Source: Galbibacter marinus
GTDB lineage: Bacteria; Bacteroidota; Bacteroidia; Flavobacteriales; Flavobacteriaceae
DNA length: 64,000 nucleotides
Direction of reading: 5' to 3'
Assembly (NCBI RefSeq): GCF_000300875.1
Contig: NZ_AMSG01000018.1
Span: forward strand, 1 to 64,000
Shown: positions 4,217 through 35,519 of the stretch, one piece after another
Layout of the letters: every line of letters starts with the position of its first letter
How positions within the stretch are numbered: position 1 is the stretch's first letter
The notes under the pieces: generated by a model
What the model saw: the letters and a program-made list of their open reading frames with translations, nothing else
What the model was told of the DNA's origin: nothing
Databases searched by the model: none
Position numbers and translations under genes: made by a program

Positions 4217-5737
4217 TTAATTTTGGGTGTTCATTTTTAATAGCTCCTCTAAATAATGTCTATTACTAGAGAGCCTAGGAATTTTATGTTGCCCTCCTAG
4301 CTTATCGTATTTCTTTAACCAGTCGTAAAATAAATCCTTTCTTCCAAGGTGTAGAATTGGCGGATTTAACGTCATATTATTATAACGCTTTGCCTCATAA
4401 TCAGAATTCACCGACTGCAAAGCCAAATCCAATTCCTTAGAGAAGACATCCAAGGACTCTGGCATTTTTCTAAATTCAATGATCCACTCATGACCCCCTT
4501 TGTCCCTGCCTTGCATAAAAACTGGTCCAGCAGTATAATCAATGATTTCAGCACCAGTGATTTTACAAGCTCTTTCTAAGGCTTCTTCGGCATTTTCAAT
4601 AATTAATTCTTCTCCGAAAACATTGATATGATGTTTGGTTCGTCCAGTGACTTTAATCCTGTAAGGATCCTTAGAGGTAAATCGTACTGTATCTCCTATA
4701 AGATAACGCCACAACCCAGCGTTGGTGGTAATTACTATAGCATAATTCGTATCCAAAGCTACCTCCCAAATGGGCAGTACTTTTTCATTTGGAGTACCAT
4801 AGGTATCCATAGGAATAAACTCATAGAAAATCCCGTAATCTAGCATCAGCAGAAGCTCATCAGAATCATTTCTATCCTGAATAGCAAAGAAGCCCTCTGA
4901 GGCATTATATATTTCGTAATAGCGGAAACTTTGACGCGGTAGTATTCGCTGGTATTGTTCCTTATAAGGGTGAAAGCTCACCCCTCCGTGAAAATAAACT
5001 TCGAGGTTTTCCCAGATTTCAAACAGGTTAGATTTCCCTGTGTCCTCTAAAATTTTATTTAAAAGCACGAGCATCCACGAAGGAACACCAGCCAAACTAG
5101 TTACATTTTCACTCACTGTTTCTTTAACTATGGCGGAGAGTTTATTTTCCCACTCGCTCATCAGAGAAACTTTGTTACTTGGGGTACTACTCATTTCCGC
5201 CCAAAATGGCATATTGTCAATGATTATAGCGGACAAATCACCAAAAAACGTTTGATTGCTTTGATACAATTCTTTACTCCCTCCTAAACGCAAGCTCTTC
5301 CCATCAAAGAGTCTGGATTCTTCGTTATTATTAAAATAAAGCGATAGCATGTCCTTACCTGCCTTGAAATGGCAATCCTCAAGGGACTCCGTACTCACTG
5401 GGATAAATTTGCTCTTAGCGTTGGTTGTACCACTACTTTTAGCAAACCATTTGATAGGTGTGGGCCAAAAGATGTTCGACTCCCCTTTTCTAGAACGCTC
5501 AATCATCGGCTCAATATCTTCGTAACGCACTATGGGCACACGATCGGCAAAGATTTTATACGAAGTGATTTCCGAGAATCCATATTGTTTTCCTAGCTCA
5601 GTTGCACTGGAGCGACTCAGTAAATGGTTAAGCACTTCAGTCTGTACCTCAGCAGGATATTTCAAGAACAATTCCATCTGATGGAACCGCTTCTTTAGAA
5701 ACCAGGAAGCAATGGAGTTAATTAGTGGAAATGACAT
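4217..5737 (-). CDS. GH3 auxin-responsive promoter family protein (acyl-adenylate ligase fold)
   Basis: About 506 residues, homologous over its length to the GH3 superfamily of the ANL adenylating-enzyme fold. In plants these conjugate amino acids to jasmonate or auxin; in Bacteroidota the substrate is unknown. An ATP-binding 'SSGTTNAKSKFIP' motif lies near residue 100, 'FRYYEIYNASEGFFAIQ' in the middle, and 'RTKHHINVFGEEL' near the start of the C-terminal domain. The ATG at 5737 (MSFPLINS) is preferred over an upstream one at 5767, which would add ten unconserved residues and run into the promoter region of the divergent neighbour. No signal peptide, so cytoplasmic. Confidence 0.88.
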   Translation of the reverse strand: MSFPLINSIASWFLKKRFHQMELFLKYPAEVQTEVLNHLLSRSSATELGKQYGFSEITSYKIFADRVPIVRYEDIEPMIERSRKGESNIFWPTPIKWFAKSSGTTNAKSKFIPVSTESLEDCHFKAGKDMLSLYFNNNEESRLFDGKSLRLGGSKELYQSNQTFFGDLSAIIIDNMPFWAEMSSTPSNKVSLMSEWENKLSAIVKETVSENVTSLAGVPSWMLVLLNKILEDTGKSNLFEIWENLEVYFHGGVSFHPYKEQYQRILPRQSFRYYEIYNASEGFFAIQDRNDSDELLLMLDYGIFYEFIPMDTYGTPNEKVLPIWEVALDTNYAIVITTNAGLWRYLIGDTVRFTSKDPYRIKVTGRTKHHINVFGEELIIENAEEALERACKITGAEIIDYTAGPVFMQGRDKGGHEWIIEFRKMPESLDVFSKELDLALQSVNSDYEAKRYNNMTLNPPILHLGRKDLFYDWLKKYDKLGGQHKIPRLSSNRHYLEELLKMNTQN

Positions 5738-5746
5738 ATTTTGATT

Positions 5747-5768
5747 TATATTTGCTAAAAATAGCAAA
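5747..5768 (+). promoter_or_regulatory. -7 box with overlapping inverted repeat between GH3-like and DUF2797 genes
   Basis: TATATTTG at 5747-5754 matches TAnnTTTG and would start a transcript near 5759, just before the DUF2797 ATG at 5776. A perfect inverted repeat, TTTGCTA-AAAA-TAGCAAA, covers 5751-5768 and overlaps the box. It lies between two divergent starts only 38 bases apart, so it could be an operator or an RNA hairpin at the very 5' end of the transcript. Confidence 0.45.
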
Positions 5769-5775
5769 AACTTTT

Positions 5776-6576
5776 ATGATGTTCGAAGGTGTACTGACCA
5801 AAATGCGTACAGAAAATTCCAAACCTGTTAATTATTACTTGGTTTTGGACACCAACTATATTAATTTCAATCAACTGCTCAATAAAACAATTGGCATAAA
5901 ATTTTTGAGATTTGAATGCTTAAACTGTCATTTGGACAAACCAATATACAGACAAGGGTTTTGTAGAAGTTGCTTTTTTGAAGCCCCTCAAGCTGCAGAT
6001 TGGATTATTCGACCTGAATTAAGCCAAGCTCATTTAGATGTAGAGGATCGAGATTTAGTCTATGAAAAAGAAATGCAGTTACAGCCACATATTGTATACT
6101 TGGCAAATTCTAGTAGCATTAAAGTCGGCGTAACTCGAAAAAATCAAGTTCCTACCCGATGGATTGATCAAGGTGCTCATGAGGCATTGGAGATTCTTGA
6201 AACACCCAATAGATATCTTGCAGGTATCGCAGAGGTAGCACTTAAGGACCATGTCTCGGATAAAACCAACTGGCGAAAAATGCTTCAGAACGACATAAAG
6301 GATGAGGACCTAAAGGCCTATGGCGCAGAATTAAAGAACTATTTACCAGAGGAAGTAAAACCTTATTTTATAGAAGATAATTCAGAGACCAATATCGAAT
6401 TTCCGGTAGAGGCCTACCCAGAGAAACCTAAAAGCTTAAACCTTCTTAAAACACCAGAATATCAAGGTGTCTTAAAGGGGATAAAAGGGCAATATTTAAT
6501 TTTTGAGGACCAAACCGTATTTAACATCAGATCAAATGAAGGCTTGGTTGTTGCAATCGAAGTGATTGTAAATTAA
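5776..6576 (+). CDS. DUF2797 domain-containing protein
   Basis: A protein of about 266 residues. Near the N-terminus there is a four-cysteine zinc-ribbon-like pair (CLNC ... CRSC). It is followed by a 'SIKVGVTR' segment and 'RWIDQGA', the conserved core of the DUF2797 family. The KVG-x-T plus downstream Arg pattern recalls GIY-YIG-like folds, but that is inference. Function unknown. ATG 5776 (or 5779) is chosen over 5725 because the -7 box at 5747-5754 lies downstream of the latter. It is divergent from the GH3-like gene and ends 38 bases before the convergent rpsU. Confidence 0.8.
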   Translation: MMFEGVLTKMRTENSKPVNYYLVLDTNYINFNQLLNKTIGIKFLRFECLNCHLDKPIYRQGFCRSCFFEAPQAADWIIRPELSQAHLDVEDRDLVYEKEMQLQPHIVYLANSSSIKVGVTRKNQVPTRWIDQGAHEALEILETPNRYLAGIAEVALKDHVSDKTNWRKMLQNDIKDEDLKAYGAELKNYLPEEVKPYFIEDNSETNIEFPVEAYPEKPKSLNLLKTPEYQGVLKGIKGQYLIFEDQTVFNIRSNEGLVVAIEVIVN

Positions 6577-6593
6577 GACTAAGGGTAGGTGGA

Positions 6594-6629
6594 ATAAAAA
6601 AAAGCTAGAGTGATTATTCCTCTAACTTT
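6594..6629 (-). terminator. Rho-independent terminator of rpsU
   Basis: On the minus strand a ten-pair stem, AAAGTTAGAG with CTCTAGCTTT (one G-U pair), has a nine-base loop and runs into eight Ts. Its 5' arm overlaps the last codons of rpsU. Confidence 0.8.
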
Positions 6630-6808
6630 CTTTGGTATTCTTGCTTGTAAATTGCTTTAGCAACCTGCACTCTACGCTCTTGTGACTTCTTAGTGAAGTG
6701 TTGATTATCACGTAGATTTCTAAGTTGTTGCGTTTTACGATATTTTTGTTTGTAACGTTTTAAGGCACGATCGATATTTTCGCCTTCTTTAATTGGTATT
6801 ATCAGCAT
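6614..6808 (-). CDS. rpsU: 30S ribosomal protein S21
   Basis: 64 residues, highly basic, beginning 'MLIIPIKEGENIDRALKRYK' and followed by the Arg/Lys-rich helix typical of S21 of the small ribosomal subunit. In Bacteroidota this protein has been linked to the way the ribosome hides the anti-Shine-Dalgarno sequence, which agrees with the absence of SD motifs in this window. It lies downstream of the cold-shock gene on the same strand, with a terminator hairpin between them, so it is probably mainly transcribed separately. Confidence 0.95.
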   Translation of the reverse strand: MLIIPIKEGENIDRALKRYKQKYRKTQQLRNLRDNQHFTKKSQERRVQVAKAIYKQEYQRKLEE

Positions 6809-8715: not shown

Positions 8716-11085
8716 ATGGGTAAATCTTGTTTTCACTGTGGTATTGAGTTCGAGAATGAATCTTTTGTGGTTGACCAAAAGGATTTTTGTTGTATTGGAT
8801 GTAAAACGGTCTATGAAATCCTAAGTGAGCACGAGCTACATTCCTATTACGATATTGAAAAAAATCCAGGAATTTCTCCCTTGCAATTTGTTGGTAAATT
8901 TGATTATTTAGACAACAAAGACATTTCGGATCAGTTGTTGGAATTCGATGAAAATGGTATTCAGATCGTCAATTTATTTATCCCAAACATCCATTGTAGT
9001 TCATGTATATGGGTTTTAGAACAAGCCAATAAGCTCAACCTCCATATTAAAGATGCCCAGGTCACCTTTCCTAAGAAAACGGTTCGCTTGGTGTATAATT
9101 CCAGTTCACTATCCTTAAAAGAGCTCGTGGTACTATTAGCCTCAATTGGTTACCCCCCTAAAATTAATCTCGAAAACAAGAATACCGAAAAGCAAGTAAC
9201 CGATCGTAGTTTGCTCTATAAAATAGGAGTAGCTGGGTTTTCTTTCGGAAATGTCATGCTGCTTTCCTTCCCTGAATACTTTGAGGTAAGTGAGTTTTGG
9301 CTAGATCAATACAAACCTGTGTTTCGATGGCTTATGTTTGCCTTTTCTCTTCCTGTGGTATTTTATGCGGCATCGGATTATTTTATTTCAGCCTATAAAA
9401 GTTTAAAAAAGGGGATATTAAATATTGATCTCCCTATTGCTCTTGGTGTTTTTGTGTTGTTTACAAGAAGTACCTATGAAATTATTGCTCATACTGGTCA
9501 AGGTTTCTTTGACAGTTTAACAGGTTTGCTTTTCTTTTTGTTAGTGGGCAGGTATTTTCAGCAAAAAACGTATGCCTTTTTATCTTTCGAGCGTAGCTAT
9601 AAAAGTTATTTCCCCATTGGAGTCACGGTCATAAAAGATGGAATGGAAGAAAACATTCAGGTCAAAGATGTAAAAAAAGGAGATCGCATTCTCATTAGAA
9701 ATGAAGAGATAATTCCTGTGGATAGCATTCTTATGAAAGGCAATGCAGAGATTGATTACAGTTTTGTCACCGGTGAATCCAACCCCATTCACAAAGCCCT
9801 CGGTGATAAAATATATGCTGGCGGAAAACAAAAAGATCAGCCAATTGAAATCCAGGCAATACGAAGTGTTTCTCAAAGTTATCTCACCCAGCTTTGGAGT
9901 AAAGACTCCATGAAGAATCAGGAGAAATCTCAAGATTTTGCACTGACTAATAAAATCAGTAAGTATTTTACACTTGTGATCCTAATAGTGGCCTTCTCTA
10001 CTCTAGGCTTCTGGTTATGGTGGGACCCTGGATATGCTGCCTATGTCTTTTCTGCGGTTTTAATTATTGCTTGTCCCTGTGCCCTTGCCCTAGCTGAGCC
10101 TTTTACCCTTGGAAACCTTCTTCGTATTTACGGAAAGAGAGGATTTTATCTAAAAAATGGACAGGTTATAAATCGTATGGCAGAGATCAGCAGCATAATC
10201 TTTGATAAAACAGGAACCATAACGGCCAATGATCAAAGTAAAATCCATTATCACGGAATGGAACTCAATACTCATGAACAGGCGCTTTTAAAAAGTACCT
10301 TACGGGGATCAAATCACCCTTTGAGTAGGCAACTATACAATATGCTTCGATCTCAAAACATCCTTACCATGGATGATTTTAAGGAAACTGCAGGAAAGGG
10401 AATAGAGGCCACCTTTGAAAAGGACACCATAAAAGTTGGATCCGCCTCGTTTTTAAATCACAAAGCGGCCACCAAGGTAGAAAACACCAGTGTCCACATC
10501 AGCACTAACAACAACTACAAAGGAAAGTTTGTATTGCAAAACATGTATAGAGAGGGTGTATTTGAACTTTTCAAAAACCTGAGTAAACACTATGAAATAG
10601 CCATATTATCTGGAGATAATGCACAGGAGGAAGAGAATTTAACCAAGCGCTCTCCAAGTGGAACCAAAATGTTTTTCAATCAAAAGCCTGAAGATAAATA
10701 CAACTACATCAAAGACCATCAAAAAGAAGGTTCAAAAATGCTCATGATTGGCGATGGTTTAAATGATGCTGGCGCGCTCAAAGAAAGTCATGTCGGTATT
10801 GCAGTTTCTGAAAATGTGAATGTGTTTTCTCCTGCTTGTGATGCCATTTTAGATGCATCCAAACTCAAAGATCTCGACAAATACCTTCGTTTGAGCAAAA
10901 TGGGTGTGCATATTATTCACCTTAGCTTCGTGATTTCCTTTTTATATAATGTAATTGGATTATCCTTTGCAGTTACAGGAAATTTATCCCCTGTAGTTGC
11001 GGCAATTTTAATGCCTTTAAGTTCCATTAGTATTGTAGCATTTACCACCCTTAGCACCTATTATGTAAGCCGTAAGCTAACATGA
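8716..11085 (+). CDS. ccoI: Cu(+)-translocating P-type ATPase for cbb3 oxidase assembly (CcoI/FixI)
   Basis: About 789 residues. The order is: an N-terminal cysteine-rich metal-binding region (CFHCG, then CCIGC), a heavy-metal-associated domain with 'HCSSC', eight predicted membrane helices, TGES actuator loop 'VTGESNP', the metal motif CPC in 'ACPCALALAEP', phosphorylation motif 'DKTGT', 'SNHPLSRQL' and 'GDGLNDAGAL'. It belongs to the CopA2/FixI group, which moves copper outward for cytochrome oxidase assembly; this fits its place before ccoS and ccoNO. The start is ATG 8716 (MGKSCFHCG), because an earlier ATG at 8683 lies before the predicted transcript start. An Fnr-like operator precedes it. 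Confidence 0.95.
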   Translation: MGKSCFHCGIEFENESFVVDQKDFCCIGCKTVYEILSEHELHSYYDIEKNPGISPLQFVGKFDYLDNKDISDQLLEFDENGIQIVNLFIPNIHCSSCIWVLEQANKLNLHIKDAQVTFPKKTVRLVYNSSSLSLKELVVLLASIGYPPKINLENKNTEKQVTDRSLLYKIGVAGFSFGNVMLLSFPEYFEVSEFWLDQYKPVFRWLMFAFSLPVVFYAASDYFISAYKSLKKGILNIDLPIALGVFVLFTRSTYEIIAHTGQGFFDSLTGLLFFLLVGRYFQQKTYAFLSFERSYKSYFPIGVTVIKDGMEENIQVKDVKKGDRILIRNEEIIPVDSILMKGNAEIDYSFVTGESNPIHKALGDKIYAGGKQKDQPIEIQAIRSVSQSYLTQLWSKDSMKNQEKSQDFALTNKISKYFTLVILIVAFSTLGFWLWWDPGYAAYVFSAVLIIACPCALALAEPFTLGNLLRIYGKRGFYLKNGQVINRMAEISSIIFDKTGTITANDQSKIHYHGMELNTHEQALLKSTLRGSNHPLSRQLYNMLRSQNILTMDDFKETAGKGIEATFEKDTIKVGSASFLNHKAATKVENTSVHISTNNNYKGKFVLQNMYREGVFELFKNLSKHYEIAILSGDNAQEEENLTKRSPSGTKMFFNQKPEDKYNYIKDHQKEGSKMLMIGDGLNDAGALKESHVGIAVSENVNVFSPACDAILDASKLKDLDKYLRLSKMGVHIIHLSFVISFLYNVIGLSFAVTGNLSPVVAAILMPLSSISIVAFTTLSTYYVSRKLT

Positions 11086-11125
11086 CATTTATCATAATTT
11101 AAGTGCTTATGTCATCCTAATTTTG
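11082..11125 (+). promoter_or_regulatory. Fnr-like operator and promoter of ccoS-ccoNOQP
   Basis: ATGACATTTATCAT (11082-11095) overlaps the ccoI stop codon; its core TGACATTTATCA is centred at 11088.5. The -7 box TAATTTTG is at 11118-11125. Centre to last G is again 36.5 nt. This suggests a second, internal promoter driving the oxidase structural genes. Confidence 0.7.
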
Positions 11126-11147
11126 CAACGTAAAGAAAGCTATTGCT

Positions 11148-11333
11148 ATGAGTGTTATTTACATCCTAATATCCTTGAGTATCGTAATTGCGGTTGTCTT
11201 TTTCACTGCATTTATAATTGCGGTGAAAAATGGACAGTTTGACGATAGTCATACTCCTGCTATTCGAATTTTATTTGATAGCGAATCCAAGCAAAAGCAA
11301 ACAAATAAATACAATAAATCAAAGAATAAATAA
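11148..11333 (+). CDS. ccoS: cbb3-type cytochrome oxidase assembly protein CcoS
   Basis: 61 residues with one N-terminal membrane helix (about 4-26), followed by the family pattern 'AVKNGQFDD' and a polar tail. CcoS is needed for insertion of cofactors (haem and CuB) into the cbb3 oxidase. Its size and place between ccoI and ccoN are typical. Twelve bases separate it from the fused ccoNO gene. Confidence 0.92.
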   Translation: MSVIYILISLSIVIAVVFFTAFIIAVKNGQFDDSHTPAIRILFDSESKQKQTNKYNKSKNK

Positions 11334-11345
11334 CAGTGTTGAACT

Positions 11346-13556
11346 ATGGAAATAGAACAGTTTTACTATGACAATAAAATTGTCAAAAAATTCCTTTATG
11401 CGACCATGTTTTGGGGTCTTATTGGAATGGGTGTTGGGCTACTTCTGGCCTTTCTATTTATTTTCCCACAACTAACAGATGGTATTTCATGGCTGAGTTT
11501 TGGAAGGCTTCGTCCATTGCATACTAATGCAGTGGTTTTTGCTTTTGTTGGAAATGCCATTTTTGCCGGGGTTTATCATTCCTTACAGCGTTTATTAAAG
11601 GCTCGTATGGCTAGCGACTTTTTGAGTAACTTCAATTTCTGGGGTTGGCAACTCGTTATTCTAGCTGCTGCGATCACCTTACCACTTGGGTTTACTTCTT
11701 CCAAAGAGTACGCCGAGTTGGAATGGCCAATTGACATTCTTCTAGCCTTGGTTTGGCTTGCTTTTGGAGCTAATATGATCGCCACGATCTTAAAGAGAAG
11801 AACGCGTCACCTCTATGTAGCGATTTGGTTTTACTTGGGAACATTTGTAACCGTTACCGTACTACACATCTTTAACAACATAGAACTTCCTGTAAGTTTT
11901 ATGAAGAGCTATTCAGTATATGCTGGGGTTCAAGATGCACTGGTTCAATGGTGGTATGGGCATAATGCTGTGGCCTTCTTTTTAACCACACCCTTCTTAG
12001 GTCTGATGTATTATTATGTTCCTAAGGCGGCTAATAGACCTGTGTACTCCTATCGTTTATCCATTGTTCACTTCTGGTCACTTATATTTATTTATATCTG
12101 GGCTGGTCCTCACCACTTACTATATACCGCTTTACCCGAATGGGCCCAAAACCTTGGGGTGGCGTTTTCAGTGATGCTTCTTGCACCATCATGGGGAGGA
12201 ATGATCAACGGATTATTAACCCTTAGAGGTGCTTGGGATAAGGTAAGGGTTGACCCTGTTCTAAAATTCTTTGTAGTTGCAATTACAGGTTACGGAATGG
12301 CGACTTTTGAAGGTCCACTCTTATCGTTAAAAACTGTAAACGCTATTGGGCACTACACCGATTGGATTATCGCACACGTTCACGTTGGAGCCTTGGCTTG
12401 GAACGGGTTTTTAACCTTTGGTATGATTTATTACCTAGTTCCTAGATTATTTAAAACTAAACTGTATTCTACAAAGCTAGCTAATACACATTTCTGGTTA
12501 GGAACCCTTGGTATTATCCTATATGCGATCCCGCTTTATGTGGCTGGTTTTACCCAGGCTTCTATGTGGAATCAATTCAATCCTGACGGAACGCTGGTTT
12601 ACGGAAACTTCCTAGAGACAGTTACACAGATCATCCCTATGTATGCCATGAGAGCAGCTGGAGGATCTCTTTATCTTCTTGGAGCGATTATCGGAATCTA
12701 CAACGCTATTATCACCATCCGTAAGGGTGTAAAATTAGAAGACGAATTAGCCACGGCTCCACCACTGGTTCGTGTTTCGAAAAGAAAACTCTCTGGAGAG
12801 ACTTTCCACGGTTGGTTAGAGAGAAAACCTGTTCAGTTAACCATTTTAGCTACTATTGCAATTTTAATTGGTGGAATTGTTCAAATTGTGCCTACCCTTA
12901 TGGTAAAATCAAACATTCCTACCATTGCAAGTGTAAACCCATACACGCCGCTTGAACTTGAAGGACGAGATATTTACATCCGGGAAGGTTGTGTTTCTTG
13001 TCACTCTCAAATGATCCGCCCTTTTAGAAGTGAAGTGGAGCGTTATGGAGAGTACTCTAAAGCTGGAGAATATGTCTATGATCACCCATTTTTGTGGGGA
13101 AGTAAGAGAACTGGACCTGATTTACATCGTATCGGCGGGAAGTACAGTGACTCATGGCATTTCAACCATATGTACGACCCACAAAGCACCTCACCTGGAA
13201 GTATCATGCCAGCATACCAATGGTTAATTACCGATGAGCTCGATCGCTCCCATACAGAGACCAAAATGAAAGTCATGGTAAAACTTGGGGTGCCTTACTC
13301 CGAGCAAGAGATCGCCAATGCTTTTGAGCATATGGATGCTCAGGCTTCGAAAATAGAAGAGAATTTATATCAAGATCCTAGTTTTAAAGAATCCTATGAG
13401 GCAGATAAAAGAGCTGCCGCAGTTAAAGGGGAGGATTTTGTTGAAATGAAAAACCGTGAAATCGTCGCTCTTATTGCCTATCTACAGCGTTTGGGAACAG
13501 ATATAAGCATCGATTTTGATCAAGATAATCAACAGTCTAAAAACGAAACATTATGA
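11346..13556 (+). CDS. ccoNO: Fused cbb3 cytochrome c oxidase subunits I and II (CcoN-CcoO)
   Basis: 736 residues that join two subunits. Residues 1 to about 480 are CcoN, the haem-copper catalytic subunit with about twelve membrane helices and conserved His in 'HTNAVVFAF', 'WWYGHNAVAFF' and 'HVHVGALAWNGF'. From about 495 there is a further helix and CcoO, a membrane-anchored cytochrome c with one haem site, Cys549-Cys552-His553 (CVSCH), and 'QMIRPFRSE' after it. The enzyme reduces O2 to water with high affinity and pumps protons. The N-O fusion is known in Bacteroidota. The stop overlaps the ccoQ start (ATGA). Confidence 0.96.
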   Translation: MEIEQFYYDNKIVKKFLYATMFWGLIGMGVGLLLAFLFIFPQLTDGISWLSFGRLRPLHTNAVVFAFVGNAIFAGVYHSLQRLLKARMASDFLSNFNFWGWQLVILAAAITLPLGFTSSKEYAELEWPIDILLALVWLAFGANMIATILKRRTRHLYVAIWFYLGTFVTVTVLHIFNNIELPVSFMKSYSVYAGVQDALVQWWYGHNAVAFFLTTPFLGLMYYYVPKAANRPVYSYRLSIVHFWSLIFIYIWAGPHHLLYTALPEWAQNLGVAFSVMLLAPSWGGMINGLLTLRGAWDKVRVDPVLKFFVVAITGYGMATFEGPLLSLKTVNAIGHYTDWIIAHVHVGALAWNGFLTFGMIYYLVPRLFKTKLYSTKLANTHFWLGTLGIILYAIPLYVAGFTQASMWNQFNPDGTLVYGNFLETVTQIIPMYAMRAAGGSLYLLGAIIGIYNAIITIRKGVKLEDELATAPPLVRVSKRKLSGETFHGWLERKPVQLTILATIAILIGGIVQIVPTLMVKSNIPTIASVNPYTPLELEGRDIYIREGCVSCHSQMIRPFRSEVERYGEYSKAGEYVYDHPFLWGSKRTGPDLHRIGGKYSDSWHFNHMYDPQSTSPGSIMPAYQWLITDELDRSHTETKMKVMVKLGVPYSEQEIANAFEHMDAQASKIEENLYQDPSFKESYEADKRAAAVKGEDFVEMKNREIVALIAYLQRLGTDISIDFDQDNQQSKNETL

Positions 13557-13741
13557 TGAAGTTTGTCAAGAATTATATGGAATCCATTGATGGAGTTGCC
13601 ATATATCCGATCATCTCACTGCTTATTTTCTTTATATTCTTTGTCCTTCTTTTTTGGTGGGTAGCCACGGCTAAAAAAGATTATTTACAAAAAATGAGCC
13701 ATTTACCCTTGGATATAAACGATAAAACCGACGCAAAATGA
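13553..13741 (+). CDS. ccoQ: cbb3-type oxidase subunit CcoQ-like
   Basis: 62 residues with one membrane helix (about 18-38: 'YPIISLLIFFIFFVLLFWW') and a short charged tail. Size, helix and place between ccoNO and ccoP identify it as the CcoQ/FixQ subunit, which stabilises the oxidase complex. It overlaps the genes on both sides by four bases, so translation is probably coupled. ATG 13556 is an equally possible start. The sequence itself is too short and simple for more than position-supported naming. Confidence 0.8.
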   Translation: MMKFVKNYMESIDGVAIYPIISLLIFFIFFVLLFWWVATAKKDYLQKMSHLPLDINDKTDAK

Positions 13742-14610
13742 GAACATTCACATCCTATCTTAGAGTACTCTTTATTCTAACGATTGTTTTTATACTGGCA
13801 GAATACTTTATTGATTCTGGAGATATTCCAGCGTTTATAAAATATCCGCAAGTCTCCCTATTCTTAGGTCTATTTGCAGTGTTACTTATAGGCTTGGAGG
13901 TTATGATAGCTGCGATGAATTCAGTCACCAGAGCTATTTCTCCCCAAGTGGATTTAGAACATCAGAAGGAGAATGAATTTACTTGGTTTAAAAAGATAGT
14001 GGACAAACTCATGGATTCAGCTCCACTAGAAAAGGAGGCTGAAATCATTATGGACCACAATTACGATGGGATACAGGAGTTAGATAACACCTTACCTCCG
14101 TGGTGGAAATACGGCTTTTATGCCACCATAGTATTTGCGATCATTTACATGGTTCGCTTTGAAATATTAGGAGCGGATAATCAATACGTAGAACTCGAAA
14201 AAGAAGTTGCGGCGGCTACTATAGCTATTGAACAGTATAGGAAAACCGCTAAAGATCTTATCGATGCTGAGAATGTGGTTTTATTAACAGAGGCATCCGA
14301 TTTAAAAGCTGGAGAAGGTATTTATAACACTCTTTGTGTTGCTTGCCACCGAATGGATGGTGGAGGTGGTATAGGCCCTAACCTAACCGATGAGTATTGG
14401 ATTCTCGGAGGTGGTATTAAAAACATCTTTAATACTATCTCTGAAGGCGGCCGAAGTGGAAAAGGAATGGTCTCTTGGAAGCAATCCTTAAAGCCCTCAG
14501 AAATTCAACAAGTAGCAAGTTATGTAATGAGTCTTTCAGCTAACAATCCTGCGGATGGTAAAGCACCAGAAGGAGATATTTGGAATAATGATAGTGCAGC
14601 ATTAGAATAA
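13738..14610 (+). CDS. ccoP: cbb3-type oxidase subunit III, mono-haem form (CcoP)
   Basis: 290 residues. Two N-terminal membrane helices (about 8-22 and 38-62) precede the usual CcoP entry: 'LDNTLPPWWKYGFY' and a third helix (about 125-143). One cytochrome c domain follows, with CVACH at residues 200-204 and a late Met ligand candidate in 'GKGMVSWK'. Proteobacterial CcoP carries two haems c, whereas this one has a single CxxCH. The extra N-terminal helices are also unlike the classical subunit. It passes electrons to CcoNO. Confidence 0.93.
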   Translation: MRTFTSYLRVLFILTIVFILAEYFIDSGDIPAFIKYPQVSLFLGLFAVLLIGLEVMIAAMNSVTRAISPQVDLEHQKENEFTWFKKIVDKLMDSAPLEKEAEIIMDHNYDGIQELDNTLPPWWKYGFYATIVFAIIYMVRFEILGADNQYVELEKEVAAATIAIEQYRKTAKDLIDAENVVLLTEASDLKAGEGIYNTLCVACHRMDGGGGIGPNLTDEYWILGGGIKNIFNTISEGGRSGKGMVSWKQSLKPSEIQQVASYVMSLSANNPADGKAPEGDIWNNDSAALE

Positions 14611-14619
14611 TTCAATAAA

Positions 14620-16044
14620 ATGATGAGTACAGAAAAAGAAAGTTTTAGGGACACCATCGGAACCATCAATGAAGAAGGGAAAAGAGCATGGGTATTTCCC
14701 AAAAAACCTTCAGGAAAATTCTATACCTACCGAAAATATGTAAGTTACGTACTGTTACTTTTCTTAATCAGCGCTCCTTTTGTAAAGATCAACGGGAATC
14801 AGTTTTTGCTTTTTAATATCGTGGAGCGACGATTTAATATTTTTGGCTTTCCATTTTGGCCTCAAGACTTTTATCTATTTGTATTATCTATGGTTATTGG
14901 GGTGGTGTTCATCGGGTTTTTCACTGCCGCATTTGGAAGGATTTTTTGTGGGTGGATTTGTCCACAAACCATCTTTATGGAAATGGTCTTTAGGAGAATT
15001 GAGTATTGGATTGAAGGGGACCGAGGGGCACAAATAAGGCTAAATAAACAAAAATGGGACGCAGAAAAGATTCGTAAAAGAGTCCTTAAATGGATCGTGT
15101 TCTTTATAATATCCTTTCTGATTGCCAATGTGTTTTTGGCTTATTTAATTTCAAGTGACAAACTCTTAGCTTATATACAGAGTAATCCTTTAGATCAATT
15201 ATCCACCTTTATTTCTCTTCTGATTTTCACAGCGGTGTTCTATTTTATTTTCGCCTGGTTTCGTGAACAGGTATGTATCATTGCGTGTCCTTATGGACGA
15301 TTACAGGGAGTTTTACTCGATACCAAATCAATAGTTGTGGCCTATGACCACAAGAGAGGTGAGAGTGAAAAAGGACGAAAAAAATTCAAAAAAAATGAGG
15401 ATCGCAGTGCTTTAGGATATGGGGACTGTATTGATTGTATGCAATGCGTGAATGTATGCCCTACAGGAATTGATATTCGTAACGGAACACAGTTGGAATG
15501 TGTGAACTGTACTGCTTGTATTGACGCCTGCGATGATATTATGGATAAGGTAAATTATCCCAGGGGTCTGATTCGATATGCTAGTGAAGAAAACATTGAG
15601 AAAAAATTGCCTTTTAAATTCACACCAAGACTTAAAGGGTACTCAGCTGTTCTGGTCATTCTAACTGGTTTATTAATCGGCATGTTATTCTTAAGAAATG
15701 ATGTGGAAGCTTCTGTTTTAAGACTTCCAGGTCAGTTGTACCAAGAAAAAGGAGCGTTTACTATCAGTAATGTGTATACCTATAAGGTGATCAACAAAAC
15801 CGTTAACGCTATTGACAGTGTTCGCTTTGAGCTACTAGAGCCAAAAGGAAAGATATCCACTGTTGGAAATAACAGCTTTAAAATTGATAAAGAAGGACTT
15901 GCTGAAGGCACCCTCTTTATTGAAATTGATAAGGCATTGTTGGACAATGATAAGAATAAGGTAAAAATAGGAGTCTATAGTGGTGATGGTTTAATTGAAA
16001 CAACCACGACCACATTTTTAGGTCCTAGAAGTTTTAGTAATTAA
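14620..16044 (+). CDS. ccoG: cbb3 oxidase accessory ferredoxin protein (CcoG/FixG/RdxA)
   Basis: 474 residues (start ATG 14620 or 14623). Membrane helices lie at about 42-60, 85-110, 160-180 and 195-215, with the motif 'CGWICPQTIF' after the second and 'CIIACPYGRLQ' after the fourth. Two [4Fe-4S] ferredoxin motifs follow (CIDCMQCVNVCP, CVNCTACIDAC), then another helix and a C-terminal Ig-like FixG domain. CcoG is a cupric reductase that supplies Cu(I) for cbb3 assembly, as shown in Rhodobacter; this agrees with the copper ATPase upstream. It starts nine bases after ccoP. Confidence 0.94.
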   Translation: MMSTEKESFRDTIGTINEEGKRAWVFPKKPSGKFYTYRKYVSYVLLLFLISAPFVKINGNQFLLFNIVERRFNIFGFPFWPQDFYLFVLSMVIGVVFIGFFTAAFGRIFCGWICPQTIFMEMVFRRIEYWIEGDRGAQIRLNKQKWDAEKIRKRVLKWIVFFIISFLIANVFLAYLISSDKLLAYIQSNPLDQLSTFISLLIFTAVFYFIFAWFREQVCIIACPYGRLQGVLLDTKSIVVAYDHKRGESEKGRKKFKKNEDRSALGYGDCIDCMQCVNVCPTGIDIRNGTQLECVNCTACIDACDDIMDKVNYPRGLIRYASEENIEKKLPFKFTPRLKGYSAVLVILTGLLIGMLFLRNDVEASVLRLPGQLYQEKGAFTISNVYTYKVINKTVNAIDSVRFELLEPKGKISTVGNNSFKIDKEGLAEGTLFIEIDKALLDNDKNKVKIGVYSGDGLIETTTTTFLGPRSFSN

Positions 16045-29410: not shown

Positions 29411-31525
29411 ATGAAAAACGTAGTTGTTAAAAGGTCAGGTGCCTATGTGCCTTTGGAAGGTTATAAAATACTCATCGCTTTGGATAAAGCCTTTAGTAGC
29501 GTTCAACAGACCACCGATACGAAGGTCTATAATCGACTTATGCGTAAAATAGAGCAAAAAACCGTACTATCGGTGGAAGATATTCAGGATTCCATTGAAA
29601 GAGAACTTTTTGATGCTGGATATTTTGAAGTTTTGCGTTCTTTTACCCTGTACCGTTACACTCGTAAAATGCAACGAGAAAACAGTGCTGGTTTTAATCC
29701 CTTCACCACCTATGTGGACAGCACTCAGTCAGTAGCTGAATATATCGAACAAACCGATTGGAGAATTAACGCCAATGCAAACACCTCCTACTCCAACGCA
29801 GGACTTGTCAACAATGCTGCGGGGAAATTAATCGCCAATTATTGGCTGGACCAAGTTTATTCCAAAATAGAAGGCCAGGCACACCGTTGTGGAGATTTAC
29901 ATATACATGATCTGGATTGTTTGACAGGTTATTGTGCTGGATGGAGCTTAAGGGTACTGCTTGATGAGGGTTTTAATGGTGTACGGGGTCGCGTGGAAAG
30001 TCGTCCTCCAAATCACCTTAGGGAGGCGCTGGGGCAAATGGCTAACTTTCTAGGAATTCTACAAAGTGAATGGGCAGGAGCTCAGGCATTTAGTTCCTTT
30101 GACACTTATTTAGCTCCCTATGTTTTTAAAGATCAACTTTGCTTCGAAGAAATATTAAAGGCGGTGCGTAGCTTTGTCTACAACCTCAACGTTCCGGCAC
30201 GTTGGGGTCAATCACCCTTTACTAACATTACTTTGGATTGGGTGGTTCCTGAGGATTTAAAAACGCAAATTCCTACCCGCCAAGGCAAACACTTGTTTGA
30301 AGGGGTAGATAATCAAATATTATTGGAACTAGCTAAGGAAAGAGGCGCAGAGGATCTTTCTGAGTTAAGGTATGAACATTTTAGCCACGAAATGCAATTG
30401 ATAAATAGAGCCTATTACCAAGTCATGACTGAGGGAGATGCCTCTGGGCAGCCATTTACCTTCCCTATTCCAACAGTGAATATTACAGAAGACTTTGATT
30501 GGCATGGTCCTAACACAGATATTTTGTTTGAAAATACCGCAAAAATAGGCTCGTCTTACTTTCAAAATTTTATAGGAAGTCAGTATGTGTTAAACGATAA
30601 AGGAGAGCGTGTTCCTAATCCAAACGCCTATGCTCCTAATGCCGTAAGAAGCATGTGTTGTAGACTTCAACTGGACCTTCGTGAACTTTTAAAGCGCGGA
30701 AATGGTCTTTTTGGAAGCGCCGAAATGACAGGTAGTCTTGGTGTAGTAACTCTTAATATGGCTAGGTTAGGTTTTTTATACCCTGGTAAGAAACAAGCAT
30801 TATTTCAGGCCATGGATCATTTATTGGATTTAGCCAAGTCAACACTGGAGAAAAAACGGGTATTTGTCCAACAGATGTTTGATCGGGGCTTATATCCTTA
30901 TACGCGTCGTTATTTGACTCATTTTAGAAATCATTTTTCCACCATTGGCGTCAATGGGATGAATGAAATGGTGAGAAACTTCACAAAGGATCGTCACGAT
31001 TTAACCGATCACTTTGGACATGAAATGGCCCTAGAGATCCTCGATCATATACGTAAGCGTTTACAAACATTTCAAAAAGAGACTGGGAATTTGTACAATC
31101 TTGAAGCCACCCCGGCTGAAGGTACAACCTATAGATTTGCAAAGGAAGATTTAAAACGATATCCAAATATTATACAGGCGGGGACACCCGAAAATCCGTA
31201 TTACACCAATAGCTCACAATTGCCTGTAGATTATACCGAGGATCCTTTTGAAGCTTTACTAATGCAGGATGAATTACAATGTAAGTATACAGGGGGAACG
31301 GTGCTTCATTTGTACATGAATGAAAAAATCAGTTCTCTGGAGTCTTGCCGTGAGTTTGTAAAAACTGTTCTGACAAAATTTAAACTCCCTTACATCACTC
31401 TCACCCCTGTTTTTAGTATATGTCCAGTACATGGGTATCTAAATGGAGAACATGAATATTGTCCGCAGTGTGATCAGGTACTTTTGGATAAAATGGAGTC
31501 GGAATTGGAAGTATTGACAAAATAA
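29411..31525 (+). CDS. nrdD: Anaerobic (class III) ribonucleotide reductase, catalytic chain lacking the glycyl radical domain
   Basis: 704 residues. An N-terminal ATP-cone (about 3-90) is followed by the ten-stranded NrdD barrel. Seen motifs are 'HRCGDLHIHDLDCLTGYCAGW', a double cysteine Cys416-Cys417 in 'RSMCCRLQLD' (one of them probably the thiyl radical site), and a zinc motif with Cys671, Cys684 and Cys687 (CPVHGY ... CPQCD). In other NrdD proteins the glycyl radical domain follows directly. Here the chain stops 17 residues after the last zinc cysteine, and that domain is a separate ORF at 31607-31768. The enzyme makes deoxynucleotides without oxygen. Confidence 0.93.
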   Translation: MKNVVVKRSGAYVPLEGYKILIALDKAFSSVQQTTDTKVYNRLMRKIEQKTVLSVEDIQDSIERELFDAGYFEVLRSFTLYRYTRKMQRENSAGFNPFTTYVDSTQSVAEYIEQTDWRINANANTSYSNAGLVNNAAGKLIANYWLDQVYSKIEGQAHRCGDLHIHDLDCLTGYCAGWSLRVLLDEGFNGVRGRVESRPPNHLREALGQMANFLGILQSEWAGAQAFSSFDTYLAPYVFKDQLCFEEILKAVRSFVYNLNVPARWGQSPFTNITLDWVVPEDLKTQIPTRQGKHLFEGVDNQILLELAKERGAEDLSELRYEHFSHEMQLINRAYYQVMTEGDASGQPFTFPIPTVNITEDFDWHGPNTDILFENTAKIGSSYFQNFIGSQYVLNDKGERVPNPNAYAPNAVRSMCCRLQLDLRELLKRGNGLFGSAEMTGSLGVVTLNMARLGFLYPGKKQALFQAMDHLLDLAKSTLEKKRVFVQQMFDRGLYPYTRRYLTHFRNHFSTIGVNGMNEMVRNFTKDRHDLTDHFGHEMALEILDHIRKRLQTFQKETGNLYNLEATPAEGTTYRFAKEDLKRYPNIIQAGTPENPYYTNSSQLPVDYTEDPFEALLMQDELQCKYTGGTVLHLYMNEKISSLESCREFVKTVLTKFKLPYITLTPVFSICPVHGYLNGEHEYCPQCDQVLLDKMESELEVLTK

Positions 31526-31572
31526 GAGATAAGGCATCTTCTATGGAATTTCGAAAACTAGATATACTAACT

Positions 31573-31590
31573 GTCTGAGAGGAATCAGAC
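31573..31590 (+). other. Small stem-loop between nrdD core and glycyl radical ORF
   Basis: GTCTGA pairs with TCAGAC around the loop GAGGAA. A six-pair stem without a following T-run is unlikely to be a terminator. It lies in the 81-base spacer within the operon and could affect mRNA processing or the relative yield of the two chains. Confidence 0.35.
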
Positions 31591-31606
31591 CTTAAATTTT
31601 AAAATA

Positions 31607-31768
31607 ATGAAAACAGTCCTACAAAAAGATTTAAGCTCCTTAAATGAATTACGAACCAAGTGTTTGGTATATACCAGAGTAATGGGATACCACAGACCTG
31701 TTGAAAGTTTTAATATCGGAAAAAAAGGTGAACACAAGCAACGTAAACATTTTAGAGAGAACTGCTAA
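31607..31768 (+). CDS. Separate glycyl radical domain of anaerobic ribonucleotide reductase
   Basis: A 53-residue ORF with its own ATG. Residues 16-49 match the C-terminal domain that normally ends NrdD: 'RTKCLVYTRVMGYHRPVES', then 'FNIGKKGEHKQRKHF'. Gly27 in RVMGYHRP is the expected glycyl radical residue. Residues 1-15 are unlike the family and may form the new N-terminus. It lies 81 bases after the stop of the catalytic chain and overlaps nrdG in another frame. The 81-base spacer does not simply read through, so a single sequencing error cannot explain the split. By analogy to the YfiD/GrcA spare part of pyruvate formate-lyase, it should dock on the 704-residue chain and be activated by NrdG. 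Confidence 0.85.
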   Translation: MKTVLQKDLSSLNELRTKCLVYTRVMGYHRPVESFNIGKKGEHKQRKHFRENC

Positions 31769-32438
31769 AAGCATTTACTCAATTACCCCCTTTACCCTAC
31801 TTGATTTCCCAGGGCATCCAGCCTGCATTTTTTGGTTTAGCGGTTGTAACATGAGGTGTTCATATTGTTATAACCCTGATATCGTTTTAGGCAAAGGTAC
31901 CCTTAGGTATAAAGATGCCCTGGGATTTCTAAAAACTCGAATTGATTTGTTAAATGGGGTGGTGATGAGTGGTGGTGAATGCACCTTACACACTCATTTT
32001 ATAGAATTTGTTACTTCGGTAAGAAAGTTGGGCTTTTTAGTTAAAGTGGATACCAATGGCAGTAAGACAGAAGTGCTTGATTCTTTGCTTAGCGATAAAT
32101 TAATAGATTATGTGGCCTTGGATTTTAAGGCCATGCCTGATAAAGAAATCGCTATAACTGGTGGAAGGTTTTTTAAGGAATTCTCTGCTACTTTAGAGCT
32201 TTTGCTCTTAAATGATATACCATTCGAGGTTCGAACTACTGTACACCAGAGTCTTCTCACCTCAGCTGATATCATAACGATGAGTGAATTTTTAAATCAA
32301 AAACTGTATAAGGGAGTGTATTACTTGCAAAATTTTAAAAGTGGCGTTCCTACCTTGGGAAATATCAAATCAAATAGAGCTTCCATAGACCTTATGGCCT
32401 TAGAAAGCTCTAAGATTCCTATTGTGATTAGAAACTAA
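31728..32438 (+). CDS. nrdG: Anaerobic ribonucleotide reductase activating protein (radical SAM)
   Basis: About 236 residues. Radical SAM motif CNMRCSYC (CX3CX2C) soon after 'TPFTLLDFPGHPACIFWFSG', then 'VVMSGGECTLH' and 'VKVDTNGSK', matching NrdG and other glycyl-radical activases. It makes the glycyl radical, here presumably on the 53-residue partner. There is no ATG before the conserved region. GTG 31728 and TTG 31701 are the in-frame candidates, and both overlap the glycyl ORF (by 41 or 68 bases), so coupled translation is likely. The partner gene directly upstream makes NrdG the best of the activase names. Confidence 0.88.
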   Translation: MNTSNVNILERTAKSIYSITPFTLLDFPGHPACIFWFSGCNMRCSYCYNPDIVLGKGTLRYKDALGFLKTRIDLLNGVVMSGGECTLHTHFIEFVTSVRKLGFLVKVDTNGSKTEVLDSLLSDKLIDYVALDFKAMPDKEIAITGGRFFKEFSATLELLLLNDIPFEVRTTVHQSLLTSADIITMSEFLNQKLYKGVYYLQNFKSGVPTLGNIKSNRASIDLMALESSKIPIVIRN

Positions 32439-34287: not shown

Positions 34288-34382
34288 CAATTCTATCACA
34301 TTAAATGGTTATAGAATTAAGCGATTGTTTATAATTTTTTTTCAAAGCACCATTTTTAATGACCCTTCTTTTGTTTCTTTGC

Positions 34383-35519
34383 ATGGTGGAACATTTAATC
34401 AAACGCGCATATCTGTCAGTAGGAAGTAATTTAGGAGATCGCCAAGCAAATTTGCAAACAGCCATCGAACTTCTAAATGAAAAAGCAGGAAATATTGTCT
34501 GCTGCTCTTCTGTTTACCAAACTCCTGCTTGGGGTTTTAAAAGTGATGATTTCTATAATATCTGTTTAGGTATAGATACGCCCTTCACTCCCAAAGAATT
34601 ACTGGATTGTATGCTGAGTATTGAAGCCACTCTGGGTAGAACACGTGATCCCAATGCTGAACATTATGCAGCACGAACCATAGATTTAGACATCCTATTC
34701 TATCACGATTACATCATTGAAGATGAACAATTAATAGTTCCTCACCCTTCAATGCAGCTTAGGCGATTTGTATTGGAACCCTTAGCTCAGATTATACCAG
34801 GTAAAATACATCCTGTTTTAAATAAAACTGTAAGTGAATTATTGGAGCAGTGCGAAGATCAAAGTGGGATTGAAAAAACGGACCTTCAACTCCAATTCCA
34901 AAAAAACAATTTCTCAAAATTTAGATTTATTGCCATTGAAGGTAACATTGGTGCCGGCAAAACTACCTTGGCTACAAAAATTGCCGAGGATTTTAACGGA
35001 CAGCTTATTTTAGAACGTTTTGCGGATAACCCTTTCCTTCCCAAATTCTATGAGGATCAAAATCGTTATGCTTTTACTTTGGAGATGTCTTTTTTAGCGG
35101 ATCGTTACCAGCAATTTACAAGCGATACCTCTAAGCCGAACTTGTTCAACAATTTCATGATTAGTGACTACGACATCTTTAAATCCTTGATTTTTGCTAA
35201 TGTCACCTTGCAAAAGGAAGAGTTTGACTTATACCGTAAGCTCTTTAACATCATGTATAAAGAAGTAGTTAAGCCAGATATCTACGTGTATTTATTTCAA
35301 AGTCATGAGCGCCTTTTAGAAAATATTAAAAAGCGTGGTCGTGAGTATGAACAACAAATAGATCCTAGTTATTTAAAAAGTATAAACTCTGCCTACTTAC
35401 AGTTTATAAAATCTCATCCAGAAATAAACCCTATCATCATAGATGTCACGGAGTTAGATTTTGTGGAACACCAGAGAGACTATCAGTTTATCATCGATAA
35501 AATCCACCAAAACGGTTAA
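34383..35519 (+). CDS. folK: Fusion of FolK pyrophosphokinase and deoxynucleoside kinase
   Basis: About 378 residues from ATG 34383 (MVEHLIKRAYLSVGSN). Residues 1 to about 160 are 2-amino-4-hydroxy-6-hydroxymethyldihydropteridine pyrophosphokinase (folate synthesis), with 'SVGSNLGDR' and 'ARTIDLDILFY'. Residues from about 180 to the end are a deoxynucleoside kinase: P-loop 'GNIGAGKTTLA', 'DRYQQF' and the lid 'KKRGREYEQ'. The two activities are unrelated except through thymidylate and DNA precursor supply. I recall such fusions in Bacteroidota. It stands alone and has a strong terminator. Confidence 0.93.
   Translation: MVEHLIKRAYLSVGSNLGDRQANLQTAIELLNEKAGNIVCCSSVYQTPAWGFKSDDFYNICLGIDTPFTPKELLDCMLSIEATLGRTRDPNAEHYAARTIDLDILFYHDYIIEDEQLIVPHPSMQLRRFVLEPLAQIIPGKIHPVLNKTVSELLEQCEDQSGIEKTDLQLQFQKNNFSKFRFIAIEGNIGAGKTTLATKIAEDFNGQLILERFADNPFLPKFYEDQNRYAFTLEMSFLADRYQQFTSDTSKPNLFNNFMISDYDIFKSLIFANVTLQKEEFDLYRKLFNIMYKEVVKPDIYVYLFQSHERLLENIKKRGREYEQQIDPSYLKSINSAYLQFIKSHPEINPIIIDVTELDFVEHQRDYQFIIDKIHQNG

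Follow-up and report, generated by a model that had tools for sequence, protein, structure and literature searches.

Class III ribonucleotide reductases (RNR) are treated as enzymes in which the radical glycine is fixed in the catalytic chain, and which are destroyed when oxygen cleaves them. The first 64,000 nucleotides (nt) of contig NZ_AMSG01000018.1 of Galbibacter marinus (the whole stretch analysed, referred to here as the window) carry an nrdD locus that raises the question of whether the glycyl-radical loop can be a subunit of its own. The catalytic chain ends before the loop, which is encoded by a separate open reading frame (ORF) immediately downstream, followed by the gene for the activase, NrdG. 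The features of the locus are:

29411..31525, + strand: catalytic chain of class III RNR, NrdD without the glycyl-radical loop; 704 amino acids (aa), TAA stop; matches to ATP-cone and NRDD, and to NF006126
29420..29668, + strand: ATP-cone, residues 4-86 (PF03477, E 1e-13)
30653..30664, + strand: finger loop MCCR (Met415 Cys416 Cys417 Arg418), candidate thiyl-radical site, invariant in a 10-row alignment
31421..31471, + strand: zinc site Cys671-His674-Cys684-Cys687, predicted from sequence, retained on the catalytic chain
31526..31606, no strand: intergenic gap of 81 bases with in-frame TAG and TAA
31573-31578/31585-31590: perfect 6-bp hairpin inside the gap, read by eye
31607..31768, + strand: separate glycyl-radical peptide, 53 aa, ATG start, RTKCLVYTRVMGYHRPVESFNIGKKGEHKQRKHF core (PF13597 532-562, phrog_4132)
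31661..31663, + strand: Cys19 of the small chain, 8 residues ahead of the radical glycine
31685..31687, + strand: Gly27, predicted glycyl-radical residue (RVMGY), aligned to the NRDD C-terminus
31701..32438, + strand: nrdG2, radical-SAM activase (TIGR02495, E 8e-54); true start uncertain, frame overlapping the small ORF

A C-terminal Cys/His site binds zinc in NrdD enzymes, and the border of the split falls between this site and the glycyl loop. Coordinates and translation agree with the first-pass annotation of this DNA, which had described a 704-residue NrdD ending 17 residues past the last zinc-site cysteine (Cys687), then an 81-base gap, an ATG-started 53-residue ORF and nrdG. Its zinc motif needed a small correction: Cys671, Cys684 and Cys687 stand, and His674, which it had left out, completes the site as C..H..C..C. 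The two chains divide the family profiles between them. The 704-mer covers positions 2-528 of the 562 positions of Pfam NRDD (E 3e-157) and the 53-mer positions 532-562 (E 4e-7), which bears out the earlier identification of the small protein as the domain that normally ends NrdD and carries the radical glycine; on NF006126 (684 positions) the corresponding matches are 3-649 and 649-683. With 394.7 bits against TIGR02487 (cut-off 326.35), the large chain is a homologous NrdD catalytic chain, and the NrdG activase adjoins it. RVMGY lies on its own ORF and not on the same chain, and the enzyme is therefore classed as an NrdD variant. No solved structure matches the 53-mer at E ≤ 1.

The locus very probably encodes a working class III RNR built of two polypeptides (we put the probability at roughly 0.9), because both chains are conserved, co-occur beside nrdG, and are found without another NrdD in the genome. 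The first-pass annotation had drawn the same conclusion, naming uninterrupted chains in the relatives or a second full-length NrdD as signs of a decayed gene; neither was found, and the conclusion is well supported. In a scan of named genomes, in which the best 80 of 589 relatives were retained (72–80% identity), a separate small ORF with the same border is present in 79 of the 80 and none is fused; the remaining locus (L122) is ended by the contig end. The genome of the window (3.57 Mb, given as 100% complete) yielded no second NrdD, and neither did any of 40 split genomes searched, 39 of which show NrdD in two pieces while G475 gives a single match across one TAA.

Across all 119 loci examined (three copies of the window, L001, L002 and L020, were left out), 103 are split, 14 are fused and two are not readable, namely L122 and L142; in the latter the small ORF is present, the catalytic ORF was not parsed, and the locus was counted in neither class. 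Both MCCR and C..H..C..C are kept in all 102 split catalytic chains examined, one of the 103 loci, a contig fragment, having been left out for length. The large chain ends 9–28 residues after the last zinc cysteine (median 17), in a linker that is variable. The core of the small ORF (34 codons) occurs at the 103 loci in 94 distinct DNA versions and 37 protein versions, with a ratio of nonsynonymous to synonymous polymorphism (pN/pS) of 0.06; RVMGY is present in 94/94 distinct cores, and the other two forward frames carry stops in 92 and 89 of them. At 77 of 79 split loci the nrdG match starts within -31 to +17 nt of the small ORF's stop, and the two without a match end shortly past the small ORF.

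These data bear on the possibility that nrdD acquired a disruptive stop mutation in this isolate, the 53-mer being what is left of its end. The two ORFs of the window do lie in one frame with stops between them (beyond the nrdD TAA there are two further in-frame stops), and a real NrdD is found in none of six same-genus genomes. Against decay are the recurrence of the split in the named relatives with other frames and gap lengths, the low pN/pS and invariant RVMGY of the small core, and the lack of another NrdD in the split genomes. Conservation and the genome searches rule out the pseudogene or second-NrdD reading, and a decayed gene is extremely improbable.

A further question is whether the two ORFs are joined at translation into one chain, by frameshift, stop read-through or bypassing. 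With the last ATG ahead of the motif taken as its start, the small ORF begins between -44 and +631 nt relative to the nrdD stop at the 103 split loci, and its frame relative to nrdD is +1, 0 and +2 in 79, 15 and 9 of them, respectively. That the ORFs overlap at many loci, by up to 44 nt, and that +1 is the commonest frame would suit such joining, but gaps reach 631 nt (at L045, where the small ORF is intact), all three frames are used, the window has several in-frame stops, and on viral contig L208 nrdG (5502-6134) lies between the large and small genes. Gap lengths and frames rule out frameshift or read-through as a general route, and joining at translation is very unlikely. The 631 nt gap sequence of L045 (about 6128-6758) looks repeat-like by eye.

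The split reaches beyond flavobacteria. In genus g51, NrdD was found in 52 of 150 genomes, 51 with both pieces and one with the small piece only, at a contig start; none is intact. Two other orders, with 148 and 151 genomes searched, have the split in 4 of 12 and 13 of 14 NrdD-bearing genomes, and the remaining eight NrdDs of the first order are intact chains (open frames of 617–672 aa). A search of 395 genomes of the phylum with phrog_4132 found the small gene in all ten with this catalytic chain, that of the window included, and in none of the 385 without it, 12 of which hold more distant NrdDs. Some genomes recur across more than one of these searches. A record titled as a metagenome-assembled genome of Bifidobacterium breve (L067) has a split NrdD of flavobacterial type and is probably a mislabelled bin. 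Within the family the distribution of the operon is patchy: of 59 other relatives in the same-genus search, three have an intact NrdD (open frames of 598–630 aa).

Plasmids also carry the arrangement. Searching with the 53-mer gave 28 plasmid records, from which 18 loci were fetched; the order large-small is present in 12 (L147-L150, L154-L160, L163), all from Pseudomonadota or Campylobacterota. Split plasmid loci come from Sulfuricurvum, Cupriavidus, Bradyrhizobium, Paracoccus, Azospira, Aquabacterium, Shinella, Sulfuricystis, Thiothrix and Cereibacter. Three loci have fused chains (Acidiphilium, Acidithiobacillus and Actinomyces), and in Geoalkalibacter (L164) the chain is longer and its match reaches the loop region (position 719 of the fused query), although the loop escaped the motif search. 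On two Allochromatium plasmids the small gene stands without the large chain nearby (L151, 3965-4174; L165, 2460-2645); the activase is likewise absent nearby in both, and in L151 the small gene follows a CHAP-domain gene. RefSeq annotates the small coding sequence as nrdD in ten plasmid records, so databases already know the small gene as NrdD-like. The nrdD of plasmid pHG1 of Cupriavidus necator H16 is split (L148), and in this strain NrdDG is reported to be essential for complete denitrification (cited passages of PMC2864759, after Siedow 1999). For strain CH34 the same source gives Rmet_5137 and Rmet_5139 as NrdDG, with no mention in the cited passages of Rmet_5138, which from gene order is presumably the small gene.

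One natural fusion bears directly on the relationship between the two genes. In G808 (L124) both parts are in one chain, running ...CPDCEDTKCLVYTRVMGYHRPVESF..., and this chain aligns across the glycyl loop with the NrdD of T. maritima (4coi). In trees it nests with the split chains of its own genus, and an approximately unbiased (AU) test rejected forcing 25 Bacteroidota split chains into a clade without L124 (p 0.014), the group having been chosen post hoc, after the tree was seen. A fusion nested among split forms indicates that the two genes are therefore parts of one enzyme, as in the one-gene form. The idea that L124 is an ancestral fused form was discarded, as the trees and the AU test place it inside the split clade. 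Re-fusion is rare, with one clear case within a tree of about 100 Bacteroidota chains (in which L122, cut off by its contig end, was labelled split).

The split probably has more than one origin, because the split and fused states require six changes on a 66-row tree and four phage contigs (L197-L200) group separately from the cellular split clade, with support of 100/100; a single origin of all splits was rejected on the same grounds. The fused Acidiphilium/Acidithiobacillus and Actinomyces chains fall among proteobacterial split chains in this tree, without firm position. The tree left out L163, which is like L158, and L166, a fragment too short, and L164 was labelled fused since its match spans the loop, the motif itself not being read.

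Several observations weigh against a two-chain enzyme. Of the six same-genus genomes, one is without a match and five give weak, sub-cut-off matches (E 0.03–0.3), which makes the operon exceptional within the genus. The existence of fused and re-fused forms, in G808, Acidiphilium, Acidithiobacillus and Actinomyces, implies that detachment is not indispensable. On the Thiothrix plasmid (L154) the small gene is present and the large chain is interrupted, and at three viral loci (L167, L194, L168) the large chain is seen with no loop found in the available stretch. The genetics of pHG1, as given in the cited passages, concern nrdD and nrdG and not the small ORF by itself.

If the enzyme does consist of two chains, the large one would contribute ATP-cone, barrel, MCCR finger loop and zinc site, with the glycyl-radical loop and C-terminal tail coming from the 53-residue peptide. 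By comparison with known NrdD enzymes, the peptide would dock beside the zinc site and place Gly27 inside the barrel, close to Cys416/Cys417; the radical would be generated by NrdG while the peptide is outside the barrel, and catalysis would start upon its return. In the one-chain enzymes, the glycyl domain is described as flipping out for NrdG and then returning (PMC12662201). The P. copri enzyme has its zinc site together with Gly711 in a single C-terminal domain, disordered in the presence of dATP (PMC11226230), and it is within this domain that the border of the split falls. With the loop on a separate chain, docking may replace flipping. Cys19 is, judging from its position, probably near the zinc site. 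A cysteine is found here in 94/94 distinct cores of split loci and 55/55 distinct cores of viral orphans (see below); it is not common to all split types, as L166 has proline. NrdDs of the MCCR type may use formate or thioredoxin (PMC9669993, section 9, which is also the basis for the meaning given to the finger-loop motif). Being untethered, a peptide that oxygen has cleaved or nitric oxide (NO) has quenched could perhaps be swapped without rebuilding the 704-residue chain; this suggestion, made by analogy and put forward tentatively, would offer an attractive reason for the split.

Viral contigs were scanned for both chains. The NrdD scan gave 45 loci, of which 31 have the loop in the frame of the zinc site, eight have separate small ORFs (L166, L197-L200, L206, L208, L209) and three (L204, L207, L210) end early. 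In L197-L200 the large chain ends, and the small chain begins, in a stretch rich in Lys and Glu that looks helix-like by eye, possibly a docking coiled coil; between the pieces, L198 and L200 have an extra ORF that looks RNase H-like by eye. The catalytic chain is broken into several pieces in L209, L206, L167 and the plasmid locus L154, and a phage NrdD from human faecal material (L162) has a C-terminal extension that, by eye, looks thioredoxin-like.

The alignment scan of viral contigs for the small peptide, in which the best 80 of 244 relatives were kept (L211-L290), gave 68 orphans, eight peptides at a locus edge, three with a large chain and one not parsed. Orphans are those with neither catalytic chain nor nrdG found in the available stretch, 67 being called by script; the other, L254, had initially been called fused solely for its long open frame. 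When the whole records of 50 of the 68 orphans were searched, the small piece was present in all 50 and a catalytic stretch in none; G928 gave a second weak match of 27 profile positions. In 55/55 distinct versions of the orphan core the Arg, Cys, RVMGY, RP, N.GK, E and R are kept (pN/pS 0.26), several orphans being near-copies of one another. Nine of ten small proteins tested, the 53-mer of the window among them, match phrog_4132; L198, the exception, has phrog_487, an NrdD family, as its sole match. Phage genes lie beside 10 of the 22 orphans with neighbours examined on one or both sides: a holin, endolysin or tail lysozyme in seven, and portal, terminase or head genes in three. The neighbours of the other 12 belong to unknown or no families, apart from one metallo-phosphoesterase. 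Five of the orphans (L263, L273, L279, L280, L285) have a Cys-rich N-terminal extension before the radical loop that may be a zinc knuckle of its own.

The free-standing viral copies make replacement after oxygen damage more plausible. It is conceivable, on analogy and at somewhat less than even odds, that cells keep the loop as a replaceable subunit and that the orphans (phrog_4132) of phages and plasmids serve to provide the host enzyme with a loop, or to mend it, during infection when oxygen is low or NO is present, which would be the first spare-part system outside pyruvate formate-lyase. Against a mobile spare part, the viral records may be fragments, and no orphan small peptide was found among 50,697 isolate phage records (INPHARED), where the sole match of the 53-mer is a fused chain.

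The main rival to such a role, with an about even chance of being correct, is that the break in a flexible linker is neutral and has no function of its own, the pieces simply reassembling, as with the splits of phage RNR genes by homing endonucleases. The break does fall within the variable linker past the zinc site, and L124 is a natural re-fusion. Phage RNR genes are described as divided by introns, inteins and endonucleases (PMC3653736, PMC2988022), and the divided NrdA of phage Aeh1 as fully functional (PMC2988022). Opposed to neutrality are the rarity of re-fusion and the spread of the split across phyla, and the free-standing viral radical peptides suggest an exchangeable role, though none of these points is proof of selection for the split.

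The locus can be compared with several known systems. The canonical NrdDs of P. copri (8P23), T. maritima (4COI) and phage T4 (1H78) share with it a homologous chain, ATP-cone, finger-loop cysteines, zinc site, glycyl loop sequence and nrdG partner; the difference is that here the glycyl loop and tail are on their own polypeptide, with the zinc site left on the catalytic chain. YfiD/GrcA and Y06I of phage T4 are likewise small, free-standing glycyl-radical proteins for a large enzyme, with a phage-borne version (PMC8683613), but the 53-mer matches only NRDD at E ≤ 1, and not Gly_radical PF01228. Nor does a large enzyme with its own glycyl domain accompany it: the sole NrdD found lacks the glycine, and in the genome of the window no other glycyl-radical enzyme, GrcA or PF01228 match that could be a partner was found at E ≤ 1; a class I NrdA is present (open frame of 597 aa). 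Since the large chain is without a radical glycine of its own, the peptide should be obligatory and not just a repair part as YfiD is. The split class II NrdJa/NrdJb (PMC9669993) and the genes-in-pieces NrdA of Aeh1 (PMC2988022) are also RNRs spread over two reassembling genes; both differ in class and break point and have no glycine peptide. The phrog_4132 profile is longer (179 positions, the match covering about 94-163), and PHROGs lists its function as unknown, so the viral copies would assign a function to this family.

In the open-licence literature, the scope of the search, no description of a separate NrdD glycyl-radical peptide was found. PMC3653736 reports phage nrdD genes interrupted by introns, by inteins or by breaks without explanation, and its cited passages describe no separate glycyl-radical protein. 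One survey excluded sequences of fewer than 400 residues (PMC9531940), and with such a floor the small chain would be missed and the large chain counted as ordinary. According to the cited part of PMC8683613, YfiD and Y06I are the only validated spare parts, and others for further glycyl-radical enzymes are possible; a natural two-chain NrdD would make this question testable beyond pyruvate formate-lyase. It would mean that the radical loop can be a separate subunit, and that swapping, labelling and mutation could be done on a 53-residue peptide.

Genome context was also considered. COX1 is present in 28/28 split genome handles (two of which, G458 and G767, look like one genome), in G808, the re-fused case, and in 4 of the 11 outgroup genomes with a fused chain. 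An aerobic link of the split was not adopted on this basis, as the pattern follows phylogeny and proves nothing by itself. A neighbour resembling NO reductase occurs at 23 of the 80 loci (22 of the 69 longer loci), a label given with reserve because identity is just 25–38% in 20 of the 23 and the query protein has no NCBIfam match. Elsewhere in the window, a cytochrome cbb3 oxidase cluster (8716-16041), comprising a metal ATPase, a fused CcoN/CcoO (11346-13553) and a FixG-like protein, forms a low-oxygen respiration set, and a single 386-aa ORF at 34359-35516 fuses HPPK (folate) and deoxynucleoside kinase domains.

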